64,000 nt of DNA, from assembly GCA_028680705.1 (NCBI GenBank), contig JAQUJY010000003.1, positions 16,031 to 80,030 on the forward strand. Reading direction: 5' to 3'. The translations under genes and the position numbers were made by a program. The notes below the pieces were generated by a model, which saw only the letters and a program-made list of their open reading frames with translations, ran no database searches and was not told where the DNA came from. Source of the stretch: Bacteroidales bacterium. Its GTDB lineage: Bacteria; Bacteroidota; Bacteroidia; Bacteroidales; Tenuifilaceae. Positions 4,268 to 55,674 of this stretch are shown piece by piece. Positions within the stretch are counted from its first letter, which is position 1, and every line of letters begins with the position of its first letter.

Positions 4268-5521
4268 TTACCTAAGCGATGCATTAACATGGCATACAAG
4301 CCTTGTGAGAAAGTTCACGTAGCTGCCATACTCGTTATCGTACCATCCAAAAACCTTAAGGTGCGTAACAGGAATGTTTATGGCACTGTCTGCCTTCACC
4401 CCATATTTGGCTAGAGCTTCAACGGGCAATTTAATGAAACCCGTACGGGTATGCGTTTCGTGCCCCTCAATAACCGCAGCGGCTCTGTAGCCAATTAAAT
4501 CCGAAGACACATTTTGCCTTTCAGAAAAAATCACCATGTCGCGCTGTGCCCCTGCTGCTGCATCTTTGTAGATATTGTTAATAAGGCTTCGGTTAATGGT
4601 TGGGTTACCCTTGGCATCAATCTCACTATAAAATGTTAGGTTAAGGGTAATAAGCGATACGGTACTAGTGGGAATTCGAACCGAGTCAGCCATAAACCCA
4701 ATCTCCTGAATTTCGGGGATTATTGAATCGAGTGCTTTGGCTGCCCCAGTGGTTGAAAGTATAATATTATTGAGTACGGATCGGGTTTTACGTAAATCGG
4801 ATGTTCCCATACTTGGTATGGTATCGAGCACCGATTGGGTGTTAGTTGAAGCATGTACTGTTGACATTGAAGCCGTAAGGATGTTTGAGGTTGCCTCATT
4901 CTCGAGCAAAGGCTTAATCATATGTGCTAACCCAGTTGTGGTGCAGCTTGCTGCTGAGACAACATGATGCTTAAGTGGGTCAAAATTCAAATGGTTAATA
5001 CCATATACCATCATTAAACTATCGTCAGGCATTTTCTTCGCCGAATCCTTAATCTTGAAGGGTGCTGATGCTACCACTTTTTTTGCACCTCCCATTAAGT
5101 GACCCCTAATGCTTCCTCTTCCTGAATCGATATCTGCTGTTGGGTCGAGAAATTGGCCTGTACAATCAACCACAATTTGCACCCCTTCCTTAGCCCAAGG
5201 TATATTCTTTGGGTTGCGCTCCTTGGTAAGTATCTTAACGTACATCCCATCGATATCGAAAACAAAATTTTCGGCATCTATCAACTTAAATATCACCTTT
5301 TTACCTGAGTGCCCATAAAGAAAATGCTCAAGTCGACCGTAAGATGAGTCCGTCTCAAGGGCACAAATTACATCCTCGGGCTTTTTACCTACTTCGCGAC
5401 CAAGGTTTACCACAACTCCATCGAAATCACGGCTAACCAACTGATTCCAAAGCATTAACTTGCCTATTCGGCCTAAACTATTGATTCCAAGGTAATTTTT
5501 TCCTTTCACTACGGGCTCCAT
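4268..5521 (-). CDS. Divergent glyceraldehyde-3-phosphate dehydrogenase family protein
   Basis: NSLGRIGK Rossmann start, SAASCTTTGLAH active-site Cys motif, TVHASTNTQ, C-terminal WYDNEYGSYVNFLTRL. Confidence 0.9.
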   Translation of the reverse strand: MEPVVKGKNYLGINSLGRIGKLMLWNQLVSRDFDGVVVNLGREVGKKPEDVICALETDSSYGRLEHFLYGHSGKKVIFKLIDAENFVFDIDGMYVKILTKERNPKNIPWAKEGVQIVVDCTGQFLDPTADIDSGRGSIRGHLMGGAKKVVASAPFKIKDSAKKMPDDSLMMVYGINHLNFDPLKHHVVSAASCTTTGLAHMIKPLLENEATSNILTASMSTVHASTNTQSVLDTIPSMGTSDLRKTRSVLNNIILSTTGAAKALDSIIPEIQEIGFMADSVRIPTSTVSLITLNLTFYSEIDAKGNPTINRSLINNIYKDAAAGAQRDMVIFSERQNVSSDLIGYRAAAVIEGHETHTRTGFIKLPVEALAKYGVKADSAINIPVTHLKVFGWYDNEYGSYVNFLTRLVCHVNASLR

Positions 5522-5586
5522 TATTTTTGAGAATTAGATTTACACTTAAATATCCACTTTATTTTTGCAGCATCAAAAAATGGCTG

Positions 5587-47703: not shown

Positions 47704-48501
47704 TTATCTTGGATTGATGCTCATTACTGGGATATGACCTGCGTTGCCAATAATAAACTGCTCGTGCGGCTCAAGTACAAATATTGACTTATCTGTAACC
47801 CTAGCTGTCATTACCACAATAAGATCTGCTCGAATATTTACAGCCAGATCTAAAATCTCTTCTTGGTAGGAATTCTCACCAGGAACTGTATATATTGAAT
47901 ACTTTGCTCCTTTCTCATCGAGATATCTCACCGCTGAAGCCATATTTAGATCTATTTTGGCAACAAGTTCAGGGTCGGAAATATTAGGCTTAATGAGGTG
48001 GAACTTTGATACATAAAAATCGCAGAAATATGAAATCCAACCATGTTTCTCCTTGTTTTCAATCGTAAAATCAATAGGAAAAACAATATTATCGTAACGC
48101 CTATTAATTGGGGGCTCTTGTATAGTTACAAAGGGTACTTTTGCTTTTGTTATAACACTCAATGTTCTCAAACCGCTTAGGTTCTCCTTCCCTTTAACGC
48201 TCATTGACCCCATTATTACAAGGCTAGCATTTATCTCTTCCGAAACCCGAGCAATCTCATCAGGAATATCCCCAACAGCAACGCTAACCCTTGGTTTAAT
48301 AGAGTGCTTCTGGAAGGTACTTTCCGCAATTTGATTTAATTTTTCAGTAACTGCACCTATTTCACTTGCATTGCTAACCACATTCAAAAGTGTAATACTT
48401 TCGCCCACAACCTCAGAAACTCTCACAGCATGCTGCAATGCATAATCGGCAACTCTTGAAAAGTCCGTAGGGACAAGGATGTTTTTTTTGCTTTTTTCCA
48501 T
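47704..48501 (-). CDS. Universal stress protein family, tandem Usp domains
   Basis: [57 protein letters not shown]-terminal half repeats the fold ([12 protein letters not shown]). Confidence 0.9.
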
Positions 48502-48645: not shown

Positions 48646-51600
48646 ATGAATTTTATAAAATTTTTATTCATACAACTACTTATTTTTTTTAGGCTAACCA
48701 TTATTACTGTTTTGGCACAAGGGTTTATCTGCCTCCACGAGTGTCCTGCCGCACCCCTAGTACACTCTATTACATCGCTCCCCAATAGTTTTCACGAAAC
48801 ATATACTGATTTTGCGCAACTTGGTAAAAACTTGCTGCTAGTTAAAGGCGATAAAAACACATATCTATTCGATGGTTTTAACTGGGATACCATTGCACTC
48901 GCAAAAGATTACGAACTTATAACCGACGATACGGATGGAGTGTATATTGTAAGTAAAAAAAGTGTTTTAAAACTATATGCTCAATCAGATGGAAATGTAT
49001 ACACACAGCACCTAATCGACAGTTCATCAGTACATTATACTGGCGATATCGAAACGTTTTGTCCAACAGATATTAACCAATACTTTTTTACAACAAAAAC
49101 TGGGCTGTGGCTACAAAGCAATACTTTAACCCATATTGATGCAACAGAGAAGAACTGCAAACTTCTAAACACCCAGTCAAATACAATTTATTTAAAAGAT
49201 GGTGAAGGTGCTTTTTATGTAAATCCAAAAAACACTACAATTACACCAATTGATAATACAAGGCACATAAACATTAACAACGTTATTGCAACGGCAAATA
49301 TAAATGATGAATTGGTTTTTATTACCAACACATCACCCTTTATACATTGGGCAAACCCTAACTATTGGATTAACAAGCAACGCAATATAAAAATTCTTCC
49401 AAAGAATATCCGCATCAAAAAGGCTTACTCAAAAAACAACTATCTGCTTTTACTGACAGAGCCAGAGGGCTTTATTGTAGTTGACGGAAAGGGCGATATT
49501 GTACTTCAACTCAGCGGTAGCCTTTCTTCCGTTGAAATTGACAAAATATCTGACCTGATTGCCCTTCCAAATGGGGAAACCCTTTTACTAACAAAAACAT
49601 CTATACTGCACTGTACAAATACCAAACACGCAGGAGTTTTTTTAGGCATAAATAATTTAAGCGATACTCCACAAAGTTTGCTGTATGCCAACAATAATAT
49701 ATATGTAACTACAAACAATTCTCTTTACACTGCAAAACTCTCAGCCTCCAAAATTGAGAAAACAAACTTTAAGAAGGTTAAAGATATTCAACTCCCCATT
49801 TCTAGCATAGTTAAATATAAATCAACAATTTATTTAAGCGATGGGGATAGAGTTTTTAAATTAAAAAATCACGATTTACAAGAGGTTAATATCCCCAATG
49901 CAATATCCAACGAATACAATCAATCACTTGCAAGTATTAAAGATGAGGTTTGGGCAATAAGCATTGTTGAGAACAATCTAGTGGGTTTATGTTTAACAAA
50001 TAGATCTAACCAAGAAATAAAGATTCCATTAACCGTTGATTATATAAATATTACAGCAATAGAGTTTTATAAAAACTTTATTCTAATTCAACAGGATAAC
50101 GATAAGTGGTTCTATACCCTTGTCGATGATAGAAAAAACGAATGGGCAGAGATTAATTTGGATCATGCTAACCAAAAAATAATTTTTAATATCCCTCGTT
50201 CCAGCGTACCGATTGTAATTACGAAAGAAACAATAAATGAGTTTGATTTAGCACATAACAGTTTGGGTAAAATCCTTATAAAGGAGCCCATCGACCATAT
50301 TGCCCCAATTTTCATTAACGATTCAACACTAATTACCAAAACACAATCTCGCAGCTTTACCAATATCTATTCAATCTGGCTTTATCATTTTTCGCCTTCC
50401 GATAGTTGCTATAAACCTTCTAAAGCACTCGCATCACTACTGTCGGGTACCATAATTTACAATGCCGTTTATACCCCTGACTCTACTTTGATATTGGCAA
50501 CAAACAACGGGTTATTATACTTTACAAATACAATAAAGGATATTGAGCCTATAGTAAACATTCAACAGGTCAAGCTCTCATCAGACAAAAATGAGCAAAT
50601 AATTAAGAATAGATACCTATCTGAGCAAGAATATAGGCATAATGATATTACACCTGAGTATAACTACCGTTCTTTGAGTGCATCATTTTCAGGTATGTCC
50701 AGCAATAATTGGAGTTTTGGATTGAACAACATTCACTTTTCGAGTAAACTATCAGGAATTGATAAAGATTGGTTGCCCTGGACCAAAAATAACAGTAGAG
50801 AAATTAGCAGGCTTTCACCTGGAGAATACATCCTTAGTGTTAGAACACAAAACTATCTAGGCCAAATATCTCAACCCGCAAGTATCTGCTTTAGCATAAA
50901 ACCAACCTTCTTTGAAACAAATTACTTTATAGCAACAATAACATTTTTTTTATTAATTGGGTTATATAGTTTATACAGGTGGCGAGTTTATTACCACGCG
51001 AAGGTTCGGTTTAAACTCGAAAAACTAATTAATACACGAACCGAAGAACTTGTAAAGGAAAAAGAGAAAGCTGACAACCTCATCGCAAGGGTATTGCCAC
51101 GCGATACAGCATCGGAACTCAAAGAAAAGGGTAGGGTAACTACTCAACGTTTTCAGATGGTAACTGTTCTTTTTTCTGATATTGAGGGCTTTACTCGGAT
51201 TACCGAGGAAACAAATCCTGAAATTCTCATCGACCAACTTGATAGATTCTTTTTATACTTCGATTCCGTGGTAGAGAAATATCGGATAGAGAAAATAAAA
51301 ACCATAGGTGATGCCTATATGTGCGCAGGAGGATTACCCCAAAAAAACAGAACAAACCCCGTTGAGGTAGTTCTTGCTGCCCTAGAGATGATGAGTTATA
51401 TGCGAGACATAAACAAACAAAACTCTGATTATCTAAGTGTTTGGGAACTAAGGATAGGCATCGATACTGGACCAGTTATTGCGGGTGTAGTTGGCAGAAA
51501 TAAGTTGTCGTATGATATTTGGGGAAGTACTGTTAACATTGCTAGCCGAATGGAATCGTCGGGCGAACCAGGCCAAATAAATATTTCGGGTAATACATTC

Positions 51601-52347
51601 ATGCTCGTTAACGAGTATTTTTCATGCCCTTTCAGAGGCAGAATGCCCATTAAAAACAGGGGCGATGTTGATATGTACTTTGTGAATGGAATTAAACCCG
51701 ATCTGTCGGTCAATAATCTAGGAATTAAGCCAAACCATAAATTCAAGGTTTATGTTCAACTTGTTCGGTTAGGCGATTTAGAAGAATTTATTTTTGATAA
51801 ACTTGAGAAAGGCTTACCCACAAATCTATACTATCACAATTTAAAGCATACAGTTGACGTTTATACACAGGTTGAACTAATTGGCCGTGCTGAGGGTGTA
51901 GACCATGAGGAAATGCTACTTTTAAGAACCGCAGCACTTTTTCACGATGCTGGACACCTAATTGATTATGATACCCACGAAGAGATGGCTGTAAAATTAG
52001 CCAGAGAAATTTTACCTGAGTATCAATACTCCGATGAACAAATAAACTTAATATCGGAGTTAATAATGAGCACAAAATTGCCGCCACAACCCAAATCATT
52101 ACTTGAAGAAATTATGTGCGATGCGGATCTTGACTACCTCGGTCGTACAGATTTTATTCCAGTTTCGGACACCCTTTACAAGGAGCTTCATGAGCATGGT
52201 AAAGTTGGTACACTAAGAGAGTGGAATTACATACAAACTCAATTCATTGAAAAACACTCATATTTTACAAAAACAGCAAGAAAATTAAGAAACGTCAACA
52301 AAAGAAGCCAACTTGACAAGCTAAAAGAATGGCTTGAGAAAAACTAA
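48646..52347 (+). CDS. Sensor adenylate cyclase: N-terminal propeller/Y_Y_Y-like periplasmic region + TM + class III cyclase + C-terminal HD domain
   Basis: N-terminal hydrophobic segment, long beta-rich region, SGIDKDWLPWTKNNSREISRLSPGEYILSVRTQN (Y_Y_Y-like), TM TFFLLIGLYSLYRW, cyclase VTVLFSDIEGFTRITEE / IKTIGDAYMCAGG / YDIWGSTVNIASRMES, HD YHNLKHTVDV / FHDAGH / CDADLDYLGR. Confidence 0.93.
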   Translation: MNFIKFLFIQLLIFFRLTIITVLAQGFICLHECPAAPLVHSITSLPNSFHETYTDFAQLGKNLLLVKGDKNTYLFDGFNWDTIALAKDYELITDDTDGVYIVSKKSVLKLYAQSDGNVYTQHLIDSSSVHYTGDIETFCPTDINQYFFTTKTGLWLQSNTLTHIDATEKNCKLLNTQSNTIYLKDGEGAFYVNPKNTTITPIDNTRHININNVIATANINDELVFITNTSPFIHWANPNYWINKQRNIKILPKNIRIKKAYSKNNYLLLLTEPEGFIVVDGKGDIVLQLSGSLSSVEIDKISDLIALPNGETLLLTKTSILHCTNTKHAGVFLGINNLSDTPQSLLYANNNIYVTTNNSLYTAKLSASKIEKTNFKKVKDIQLPISSIVKYKSTIYLSDGDRVFKLKNHDLQEVNIPNAISNEYNQSLASIKDEVWAISIVENNLVGLCLTNRSNQEIKIPLTVDYINITAIEFYKNFILIQQDNDKWFYTLVDDRKNEWAEINLDHANQKIIFNIPRSSVPIVITKETINEFDLAHNSLGKILIKEPIDHIAPIFINDSTLITKTQSRSFTNIYSIWLYHFSPSDSCYKPSKALASLLSGTIIYNAVYTPDSTLILATNNGLLYFTNTIKDIEPIVNIQQVKLSSDKNEQIIKNRYLSEQEYRHNDITPEYNYRSLSASFSGMSSNNWSFGLNNIHFSSKLSGIDKDWLPWTKNNSREISRLSPGEYILSVRTQNYLGQISQPASICFSIKPTFFETNYFIATITFFLLIGLYSLYRWRVYYHAKVRFKLEKLINTRTEELVKEKEKADNLIARVLPRDTASELKEKGRVTTQRFQMVTVLFSDIEGFTRITEETNPEILIDQLDRFFLYFDSVVEKYRIEKIKTIGDAYMCAGGLPQKNRTNPVEVVLAALEMMSYMRDINKQNSDYLSVWELRIGIDTGPVIAGVVGRNKLSYDIWGSTVNIASRMESSGEPGQINISGNTFMLVNEYFSCPFRGRMPIKNRGDVDMYFVNGIKPDLSVNNLGIKPNHKFKVYVQLVRLGDLEEFIFDKLEKGLPTNLYYHNLKHTVDVYTQVELIGRAEGVDHEEMLLLRTAALFHDAGHLIDYDTHEEMAVKLAREILPEYQYSDEQINLISELIMSTKLPPQPKSLLEEIMCDADLDYLGRTDFIPVSDTLYKELHEHGKVGTLREWNYIQTQFIEKHSYFTKTARKLRNVNKRSQLDKLKEWLEKN

Positions 52348-52440: not shown

Positions 52441-53283
52441 ATGGACACTGGAAAAAAAGCTGTACTTGTTCCTTGGGACTTTACCAAGGGTTCTGAAATA
52501 GCACTAAAGCACGCTCTTCAACTAGCTGGCGTTGCAGATAACGAAATTATGCTACTCCACATTATTCCACAAACTTGGTGGAATTCTTTACTAAAGAAAC
52601 GCATAAAGCCAGAGAAATTTGAGGAACTAAAACGCAAACTAGAAGCGGTAGCAGAAAAAGTATCCTCTGAACATAAAATTAGCCCTATCTCAATGGTTCT
52701 TGAGGGTAATCCCGTCAAAATAATAAGGGACTTAATCGTAACGGCTAATCTGAACCTTATTGTCACTCACAAGTGCTATTCTTACGAGAAGAAAAGAATT
52801 AACAGTATTGACTTTCTTAAAAAACTGGCAATTAAGAACTATAATATACCATTTATAATTGCCGAAGCACCTCCTGCCCATAATCATTATATTGAGATTG
52901 TAGTACCACTTGATTACGACAAAAAATATAAAGAAACCCTTCATTGGATAATCTATCTATCCAAATACTACAAGTGCAACATTAATCTCATTAAGCCATA
53001 CATATCAGATCAGAGGAAGAAAAAGGAAATGGCCAATAATATCTATTTCACAAAAAAAATGTTGGACGGCAATAAAATTGTTTACGGTATTAAAACTGCA
53101 AAAAGACAAAACATCTTCCGAGATGAGATCTTTAAGTTTGCAAATAATATCGATGCCGACCTAATACTTATAATGGCCGACAAGTATGATGCTTACGTCA
53201 AGAAGAATAGGAGTAAGTCTCCGTCAAGAATACCAATAATGTGCATAACACCACGGGTTAGAAAACTACAAGGTTTCGCCTAA
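52441..53283 (+). CDS. Universal stress protein family, tandem Usp domains (divergent)
   Basis: KAVLVPWDFTKGSEIALKHALQLAGVADNEIMLLHII; IVVPLDYDKKYKETLHWIIYLSKYY; weak nucleotide-binding motif. Confidence 0.86.
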   Translation: MDTGKKAVLVPWDFTKGSEIALKHALQLAGVADNEIMLLHIIPQTWWNSLLKKRIKPEKFEELKRKLEAVAEKVSSEHKISPISMVLEGNPVKIIRDLIVTANLNLIVTHKCYSYEKKRINSIDFLKKLAIKNYNIPFIIAEAPPAHNHYIEIVVPLDYDKKYKETLHWIIYLSKYYKCNINLIKPYISDQRKKKEMANNIYFTKKMLDGNKIVYGIKTAKRQNIFRDEIFKFANNIDADLILIMADKYDAYVKKNRSKSPSRIPIMCITPRVRKLQGFA

Positions 53284-53355: not shown

Positions 53356-55674
53356 ATGCTATCCATGAAGTTTAAATTTACCCTTCAGCAAAAGATACTC
53401 CTTCTTGTAGTTGGTATTTCAATAGTCATTTACGCTATTGCCATTGGTTTCATTACCCTAAGAGCAAAGAAAATAGCAATAAACGATGCCATTGCTGTTA
53501 CGGTTTCCACAGCACAAAAAAACGCATCGGATATTAAAGCCCACCTCGAAAATGATCTTACTTCTATGAAGACCCTTTCGCAATCAGTCCTTTCCTATAA
53601 AGAGATGAGCGAAAGCCAATGGAAGAAAGTTTTCTCAAAAATGTACGAGGAGGTGTTGAAAGCTAATCCACAATTCCTCTCCGTCTGGGATAGTTGGGAG
53701 TTAAGTCACATCGACCCGACCTATACAAAAGACTTTGGTAGGTATGCAGTTGAGTTTTGGCGTGAAGGAAACCAGATAAAAAGCATCTCATCACTAAAAA
53801 ACATGACTGGCGATGATGGCGACTATGTCAGAATAAAGCAAGAGGCCACTGAAAGCATTGAGAATCCATACTTTTACAGCTACACCGACAATCAGAAGGA
53901 GCTAATTCTGATGACCAGCGTTATTGCCCCAATTCTTGAGAATGGTAAATTCATTGGGATAGTAGGGGTTGATATCTCCTTAGATAGATACCACCCAATT
54001 ATTACACAGATAAGGCCATTTAAGAACAGCTACGCTTTTCTGGTATCAAATGATTTACAGTATACTGCCCACCCTGACAAAGAGAAACACGGGCAATACC
54101 TTTTTGACGACTACGAGCAAATTATGAACAAGTACTCTATTGCCGAAAAAATAGCCAATGGCGAAGAGAACATGTTCATTGCAAATGATGTAAATGGAGT
54201 AAAATCACAGTTTATTTTCTCGCCAATAATTGTGGGTAAAACATTAACTCCATGGTCACTAGCAATAGTAGTTCCCCATAAAACAGTTCTTGCCGAGGCA
54301 AATAAAAACTTTATTATATCAATAATTATTGGACTAATTGGCCTAGTGGTTCTTACTCTAATTATTGCTTATGCATCAAAAAGCATTACGACCCCAATTC
54401 TGAGTATCACGAACATTCTTAAAGGAATGGCAGCAGGAAACATCTCCAATGATATGAAGCTTAGCATAAACACTGATGATGAGATAGGCGAGATGGCTAA
54501 AGCACTCAACACAACCATTGATGGACTTAACCAAAAGGTAGAGTTTGCATCGAGCATTGAAGAGGGTAATTTTGACACCGACCTTAAGGCGCTTAGCAAT
54601 GATGATGTTTTAGGTAATGCTCTTATCGACATGCGTAACAGTTTAACGAAGGCTGCCCAAGAGGAAGAAAAGCGTAAAAAGGATGACATGCTGCGAAGAT
54701 GGGCAAACGAAGGGCTTGCAAAGTTTGGTGAAATTCTAAGGCAGAACAGCGACAACATAGAAGTTTTAGCAAAATCAATTATCAAAGAGCTAATTTACGC
54801 TCTAGAAGCAAACCAAGGAGGGCTGTTCCTGCTTAACGAAGAAGATGAATCCGAACCATTTTTTGAGCTAGTTGCTGCTTTTGCCTACAACAGGCATAAG
54901 TACAAAACAAAAAGAATACTAGTTGGCGAAGGCCTTATTGGCGCGTGTGCCATAGAAAAGAAAACAATTCACCTTACCGAAATACCCAACGGCTACATTG
55001 AAATTACCTCGGGATTAGGACATAGCACCCCTACTACACTTTTACTTGTACCCCTTGTAGTGGAAAACAAAGTGCTGGGTGTTATAGAAATTGCCTCTTT
55101 CAACATCTTTGAACCATACCAAATTGAGTTTACAGAAAGACTTGCTCAAAGCATAGCATCAACCATAACCTCAGTAAAGGTTAATATCAGAACTACGCTG
55201 CTACTCTCCACAACGCAGCAACAGGCCGAAGAGATGGCGGCACAAGAGGAAGAAATGCGCCAGAATATGGAAGAACTTCTAGCAACGCAGGAAGAATCGA
55301 GCAGAAAAACGGCAGAAATGCAAAACTTTATTGATGCCCTAAACAACTCGAGTTTTGTTATTGAATACGATTCGCTTGGATATATCACAACCATTAACGA
55401 TGCTTACCTTAAACTGCTCAACCTATCACGCGATGAGGTTTTGGGAACACATCATACCGATAAGATGGAACTTGACCCTCAGAAGAAGAATGAGTGCGAT
55501 AGTATGTGGACAAACCTAAGGGATGGCATTCCGCAAAAGGAGGTTACCAAATTTATTGTACACGGTAAAGCCTTTGTTTTTCAAGAAACCTATACTCCCA
55601 TAAAAAACGAGATGGGTGAGGTTTATAAAATCCTTAAAATTTCCAATAACATTAGCAATTTAACACACCAATAA
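53356..55674 (+). CDS. Membrane sensor protein: dCache-like + HAMP + GAF + coiled coil + PAS, no recognisable output domain
   Basis: Cache-like GVDISLDRYHPIITQIRPFKNSYAFLVSND; HAMP SITTPILSITNILKGMAAGNIS...DEIGEMAKALN; GAF VGEGLIGACAIEKKTIHLTEIPNGYIEITSGLG; PAS NNSSFVIEYDSLGYITTINDAYLKLLNLSRDEVLG. Confidence 0.9.
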   Translation: MLSMKFKFTLQQKILLLVVGISIVIYAIAIGFITLRAKKIAINDAIAVTVSTAQKNASDIKAHLENDLTSMKTLSQSVLSYKEMSESQWKKVFSKMYEEVLKANPQFLSVWDSWELSHIDPTYTKDFGRYAVEFWREGNQIKSISSLKNMTGDDGDYVRIKQEATESIENPYFYSYTDNQKELILMTSVIAPILENGKFIGIVGVDISLDRYHPIITQIRPFKNSYAFLVSNDLQYTAHPDKEKHGQYLFDDYEQIMNKYSIAEKIANGEENMFIANDVNGVKSQFIFSPIIVGKTLTPWSLAIVVPHKTVLAEANKNFIISIIIGLIGLVVLTLIIAYASKSITTPILSITNILKGMAAGNISNDMKLSINTDDEIGEMAKALNTTIDGLNQKVEFASSIEEGNFDTDLKALSNDDVLGNALIDMRNSLTKAAQEEEKRKKDDMLRRWANEGLAKFGEILRQNSDNIEVLAKSIIKELIYALEANQGGLFLLNEEDESEPFFELVAAFAYNRHKYKTKRILVGEGLIGACAIEKKTIHLTEIPNGYIEITSGLGHSTPTTLLLVPLVVENKVLGVIEIASFNIFEPYQIEFTERLAQSIASTITSVKVNIRTTLLLSTTQQQAEEMAAQEEEMRQNMEELLATQEESSRKTAEMQNFIDALNNSSFVIEYDSLGYITTINDAYLKLLNLSRDEVLGTHHTDKMELDPQKKNECDSMWTNLRDGIPQKEVTKFIVHGKAFVFQETYTPIKNEMGEVYKILKISNNISNLTHQ

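Follow-up and report, generated by a model that had tools for sequence, protein, structure and literature searches.

The window is the whole 64,000-nucleotide stretch of DNA that was analyzed. It is part of contig C119, in a draft assembly of 3.09 Mb and 162 contigs. One of its genes encodes a periplasmic sensor, a class III cyclase, and an HD domain in a single protein. The features of the locus are as follows.

48646..52347, + strand: whole gene for the sensor-cyclase-HD protein, 1233 aa (ORF translation and Pfam)
48646..48723, + strand: N-terminal signal/anchor helix, residues 1-26 (maximum KD19 2.36; helix 3-26 in the model)
48748..50715, + strand: periplasmic beta-propeller sensor, approximately residues 35-690 (HTCS profile matches, Foldseek, and Reg_prop in relatives)
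50725..50904, + strand: Y_Y_Y module, residues 694-753 (Pfam, sub-cut-off here; 20/20 relatives)
50908..50973, + strand: transmembrane helix, approximately residues 755-776 (KD19 1.57; continuous helix 759-816 in the model)
50974..51138, + strand: signaling/cyclase-transducer helix, residues 777-831 (profile match to linker sequence in natriuretic peptide receptor 1 and in soluble guanylyl cyclase)
51139..51690, + strand: class III cyclase domain, residues 832-1015 (Pfam E 4e-54; alignment to adenylyl cyclases 8 and 5)
51793..52341, + strand: HD domain, residues 1050-1232, with H1064, H1068, H1100, D1101, H1104, and D1159 (Pfam HD E 3e-8; AlphaFold; Foldseek)
47704..48501, - strand: universal stress protein gene, divergent neighbor and possible effector (Usp E 5e-17)
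52441..53283, + strand: second universal stress protein gene, downstream (Usp E 5e-12; kept within the family)

The open reading frame (48646-52347, + strand) contains no internal stops over 1233 aa. An artefactual fusion or a frameshift was ruled out; the fused frame is present in tens of genomes with conserved synteny. Every part of the gene is under purifying selection, with dN/dS values within the genus of 0.03-0.07 for the cyclase, 0.04-0.10 for the HD domain, and 0.18-0.22 for the sensor. No plasmid record covered 80% of the protein. The motifs quoted in a sequence-only reading of this DNA (FSDIEGFT, IKTIGDAYM, YDIWG, YHNLKHTVDV, FHDAGH, and CDADLD) are all present. The gene also encodes two features beyond that reading, an N-terminal hydrophobic anchor (maximum KD19 2.36) and the transition-state pair N964/R968.

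The gene order beside the window gene is a divergent universal stress protein, an XTPase-like gene, porZ (PF21544, E 3e-32), and a recO-like gene; we take the XTPase-like and recO-like names from sequence recognition. The whole family keeps this order, and many other families keep it around the W-type gene defined below. The neighbors also include a dGTPase-like protein. Two genes downstream of the cyclase-HD gene, at 53356-55674, is a dCache-HAMP-GAF-PAS protein with no recognized output domain, which is syntenic in the family.

The periplasmic sensor and the cyclase

The ectodomain is well supported as an HTCS-type propeller and Y_Y_Y sensor. The Pfam match to Y_Y_Y at residues 694-740 is below the cut-off in the window protein, yet the domain was found in 20/20 long relatives, and Reg_prop was found in 10/20. 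A profile built from 20 ectodomains matched the solved HTCS ectodomains 4a2l/4a2m (E 3e-45), 3v9f (1.5e-43), and 3ott/3va6 (1e-32), and its end matched linker regions from natriuretic peptide receptor 1 and from soluble guanylyl cyclase. The AlphaFold model of residues 1-830 had a mean pLDDT of 79. Its 15 best Foldseek matches were HTCS ectodomains (3ott, 8e-24), followed by PorZ. The HTCS structures BT4663, BT4673, and BT3049 match the sensor by both profile and fold. The transmembrane helix before the cyclase is borderline in the window copy (KD19 1.57); long relatives range from about 1.2 to 3.0 and are mostly above 1.6.

The HTCS plan consists of two propellers, a C-terminal Y_Y_Y, and a transmembrane helix (PMC3243724). 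The window protein shares with BT4663, BT4673, and BT3049 an ectodomain of Reg_prop propellers with a C-terminal Y_Y_Y and one transmembrane helix (PMC3243724). It differs in its output, which is a histidine kinase, receivers, and a DNA-binding domain in HTCS and a class III cyclase plus HD domain here. No Pfam domain for a histidine kinase, receiver, or DNA-binding output was found in the 1233 aa. The coupling of an HTCS-like sensor to a cyclase, as first read from the sequence, is well supported by the domains of the relatives and by the profile and Foldseek matches. Sensor identity to three other family members is 22-26%, and cyclase and HD identity is about 77-81%. Several relatives in the equivalent syntenic place carry a short N-terminal part instead of the sensor and total about 480-560 aa, which indicates that the output module is the constant part.

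The cyclase was recognized by Pfam as Guanylate_cyc at residues 832-1015, above the cut-off (E 4e-54). It contains intact metal-binding D845 and D889, the ATP-type K885 and D957, and the transition-state N964 and R968. A direct alignment pairs EKIKTIGDAYMC and YDIWGSTVNIASRM with C2-domain sequence from adenylyl cyclases 8 and 5, the aligned stretches being EKIKTIGDAYM, YDIWG, and VNIASRM. Class III cyclases are dimers driven via a signaling helix, and the Lys/Asp pair selects ATP. ATP specificity is predicted here because the residues match those of the mammalian adenylyl cyclase C2 domains, in agreement with the earlier assignment. The product would be cAMP. The genome search for CRP-type receptors returned nine cNMP_binding domains in the window genome, which is consistent with cAMP use and is no proof of it. 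The same genome encodes a second class III cyclase at the end of contig C137 (locus L002, 535-1713). It is a receiver-PAS-cyclase with its C terminus cut by the contig end.

The cyclase could instead make cGMP or a pyrimidine cNMP, as in Pycsar defense. It matches the PADLOC PycC models (E 1e-14), a resemblance that is as expected of class III cyclases, and a distant HD relative is fused to PycTM. Against such a product, Lys885/Asp957 is the ATP-type pair found in mammalian adenylyl cyclase, and the locus has a stable syntenic position across families and is no defense island. We consider this reading very unlikely. A Pycsar system was ruled out on context, with universal stress protein, XTPase-like, PorZ, dCache/GAF, and dGTPase-like neighbors and no adjacent PycTM or PycTIR.

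The HD domain

Pfam placed an HD domain at residues 1066-1161, above the cut-off (E 3e-8), with metal ligands H1068, H1100, D1101, and D1159 present. The AlphaFold model of the domain had a pLDDT of 96 and a pTM of 0.92. Foldseek matched it to the Thermotogales HD hydrolase 2pq7 (E 4e-4), Bacillus subtilis YpgQ, and human PDE5A (E 5e-3, TMq 0.67). Many PDE4 and PDE2 entries, including PDE4D and PDE2A, were also matched. By sequence profile, the domain favors 2pq7, YedJ, and YpgQ. Profile matches to PDE9A, trypanosome PDEB1, and PDE5A were weak (E 0.02-0.4) and covered the first two motifs only.

The sequence-only reading had likened YHNxxHxxDV to class I phosphodiesterases. The likeness holds for motif and fold; by sequence the domain is a generic HD hydrolase outside class I. 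The motif (YHNLKHTVDV in the window protein) is near-invariant across 72 relatives. The domain shares with PDE5A, PDE4D, and PDE9A the core fold (TMq about 0.67 for PDE5A), YHNxxHxxDV, and HDxxH. Class I phosphodiesterases also have a second signature, HDx2HxGx2N, and a C-terminal half with the purine-clamp Gln. The second signature is unmatched here. HDAGHLIDYD retains HDxxH alone, and the HD domain stops after about 190 aa, compared with about 290-340 aa in class I enzymes. PDEase_I was not listed by Pfam for the window protein, and the best relative scored 19.6 bits against a cut-off of 24.8. Class I membership was ruled out, with no PDEase_I score above the cut-off and with the second signature and the rest of the domain absent. 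From sequence and model, we conclude that the domain is an HD hydrolase with a phosphodiesterase-like entrance motif and not a class I phosphodiesterase. Its closest solved relatives by profile and fold, 2pq7, YedJ, and YpgQ, differ in being free-standing and without the YHN first motif. To our knowledge they have no tie to cyclases.

The HD domain might hydrolyze a different nucleotide (a dNTP or NTP, ppGpp, or a dinucleotide), which would couple cAMP synthesis to another nucleotide pool. This fits its best sequence relatives, 2pq7, YedJ, and YpgQ, and the Pfam result, in which generic HD and not PDEase_I is above the cut-off. The near-invariant YHNxxHxxDV is a class I phosphodiesterase signature, and, as described below, the domain has repeatedly been fused to class III cyclases, lies next to them, and shows reciprocal loss with them, all of which points to the cyclase product as substrate. 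We regard a different substrate as improbable.

Evolutionary tie between the cyclase and the HD domain

An HD relative was found in 78/129 genomes of the order and in 142/393 genomes of the phylum. Most are free-standing (about 200 aa) or about 400 aa long. Cyclase-HD fusions are concentrated in Bacteroidales. In the window's family, each of the 17 genomes with the locus fetched encodes one cyclase-HD gene with both sites intact. The single-chain architecture is present as the sequence-only reading had claimed; it is not rare, being widespread in Bacteroidales, and we found no publication on it in the open-licence literature.

The same HD family also occurs without a cyclase. The sampled forms of about 400 aa are HD-PycTM, and those of about 486-506 aa are HD-YitT-DUF2179. 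Three loci (L061 at 4373-5584, L294, and L296) encode an HD of this family fused to the Pycsar-effector membrane domain (PF18967). Only these three were scanned; the majority of the 400-430 aa HD matches in the phylum probably have this architecture too, and a genome often has just one. These HD-PycTM proteins of Bacteroidota have the same HD family as the window protein and differ in that the HD is coupled to a membrane effector domain, not to a cyclase. In two further scanned loci (L275 and L239), the HD is fused to a YitT membrane protein with DUF2179; L277, L278, and L285 are equal to these in length and HD position. Since this HD family is also fused to PycTM and YitT without a cyclase, its substrate may differ.

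Some genomes encode the two enzymes as separate genes. Among 45 free-standing HD genes with surroundings fetched, 12 have a class III cyclase ORF no more than 300 bp away, in every case on the same strand. At L062, L063, and L065 the adjoining cyclase bears Reg_prop, Y_Y_Y, and the same cyclase motifs as the window gene and has no HD. It ends 13 bp before the HD gene once and overlaps it by 4 bases twice. The window gene therefore represents this operon in fused form. At L238 the fusion runs in the reverse order, HD then cyclase.

A tree of 174 cyclase-HD cores contained two main types, W and K, and a small third group. Type W has YDIWG and includes the window gene. Type K has YDIKG and is short and sensor-less. 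A universal stress protein gene is immediately upstream and divergent in 39/67 type W loci, spread over many families, versus 6/87 type K loci, and it is downstream in 13/13 loci of the third group. All six cyclase residues are intact in 68/68 type W genes, and the HD ligands are intact in 46/68. Type K has the six cyclase residues intact in 35/93 genes and the HD ligands intact in 93/93, although one source set of loci was found via HD motifs and its K genes are HD-intact by selection. No gene of type W or K had both sites dead.

Genome searches used a profile including dead HDs or the full HD sequence. They returned 39 K genes, all HD-intact, and 43 W genes, 7 of them HD-dead. A dead HD occurred in 7/18 W genes with K (or the third group) present versus 0/25 with it absent (Fisher P 0.001); by family the counts were 6 versus 10 with K and 0 versus 8 without (P 0.066). 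A noncanonical cyclase occurred in 18/19 K genes with W present versus 10/20 without (P 0.003; by family P 0.004). These P values ignore shared ancestry; the dead W-type HDs are all in one clade with at least 3 changes, and phylogenetically independent pairs were too few (5 and 2 usable).

The first metal Asp was lost in 35 type K genes, with at least 14 changes by parsimony. These cyclases retain Asn/Arg in 34-35/35 and the second Asp in 35/35, which exceeds the expectation from simple decay. Such proteins may each contribute half of a heterodimeric site.

Each of 15 loci with K and W as near neighbors has its K-type HD intact and its W-type HD dead. At L083 (6155-7555 and 10526-12403) and 14 similar loci, the tandem paralogues flank porZ and the XTPase-like gene, with the K gene on the opposite side of porZ. 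In such tandem loci the sensor-bearing copy has the dead HD and the short copy the intact HD. The window genome contains no K gene. That two jobs are split between two genes in related genomes suggests that both halves work.

The HD domain might instead be regulatory. It would bind a cyclic or other nucleotide and feed back on the cyclase, with no physiologically important hydrolysis. Its position C-terminal to the cyclase and the HD-PycTM fusions, which link it to a Pycsar-effector-like membrane domain, are in keeping with this. In one W clade the HD has decayed to LLF/YLL with the fold retained, so some HDs may serve without catalysis. The metal ligands, however, are intact in all K genes, including those with a dead cyclase, and in most W genes, and in the searched genomes W loses them only beside an intact K copy. 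This is the behavior of a catalytic site, and we consider a purely regulatory role unlikely.

Proposed function and significance

We lean, if slightly, toward a one-chain receptor in which a sensor-controlled cyclase makes cAMP and the HD domain hydrolyzes the same cyclic nucleotide. The HTCS-type propeller/Y_Y_Y ectodomain would sense an extracytoplasmic ligand. The signal would pass via the transmembrane and signaling helices to a homodimeric class III adenylyl cyclase, which would make cAMP. The C-terminal HD domain would be an active metal-dependent phosphohydrolase that cleaves the same cyclic nucleotide, and its substrate is probably cAMP or a close cyclic nucleotide. One protein would then set the cyclic nucleotide level by synthesis and breakdown. 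The ligand would control cyclase or HD activity and so set the balance. The makes-and-degrades claim of the earlier reading gains from fusion in both orders, adjacency, and reciprocal loss; the degrading half is less firm, as the HD is generic by sequence and its substrate is inferred. The neighboring universal stress proteins are candidate cAMP effectors because mycobacterial universal stress proteins bind cAMP (PMC11107214).

A wider proposal is more tentative. The family may be one of receptors that make and destroy cAMP in one chain under a glycan-type periplasmic sensor. In many lineages the two jobs would have gone to separate genes, with synthesis left to a sensor-cyclase whose HD is dead and breakdown to a soluble HD phosphodiesterase whose cyclase is dead; the retained Lys, Asn, and Arg of that dead cyclase could make a C2-like heterodimer half.

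Single-chain cyclase/phosphodiesterase proteins (plant CAPE) and HTCS sensors are already known. CAPE of liverworts and charophytes contains a class III adenylyl cyclase and an HD-fold phosphodiesterase in one chain, and both activities were measured for MpCAPE (PMC5159850). It differs in being a plant protein with a true class I phosphodiesterase at the N terminus; the window protein has a shorter C-terminal HD behind a periplasmic sensor. In the open-licence literature, a search for cyclase-HD and Y_Y_Y-cyclase proteins of Bacteroidota turned up no paper. That literature also appears to hold no description of the combination itself, of the small type of HD, of its spread in Bacteroidales, or of the paralogue division of labor.

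When four Bacteroidota genomes were known, a 2005 census detected no adenylate cyclases in them (PMC1183210). cAMP signaling is little described in this phylum, and the family would supply a sensor-driven cAMP circuit. It would also show that HTCS ectodomains drive non-phosphorelay outputs, and bacteria would gain an equivalent of plant CAPE in which the phosphodiesterase is a small HD domain. Naturally occurring gene pairs, each member with one dead site, open the claim to direct testing.
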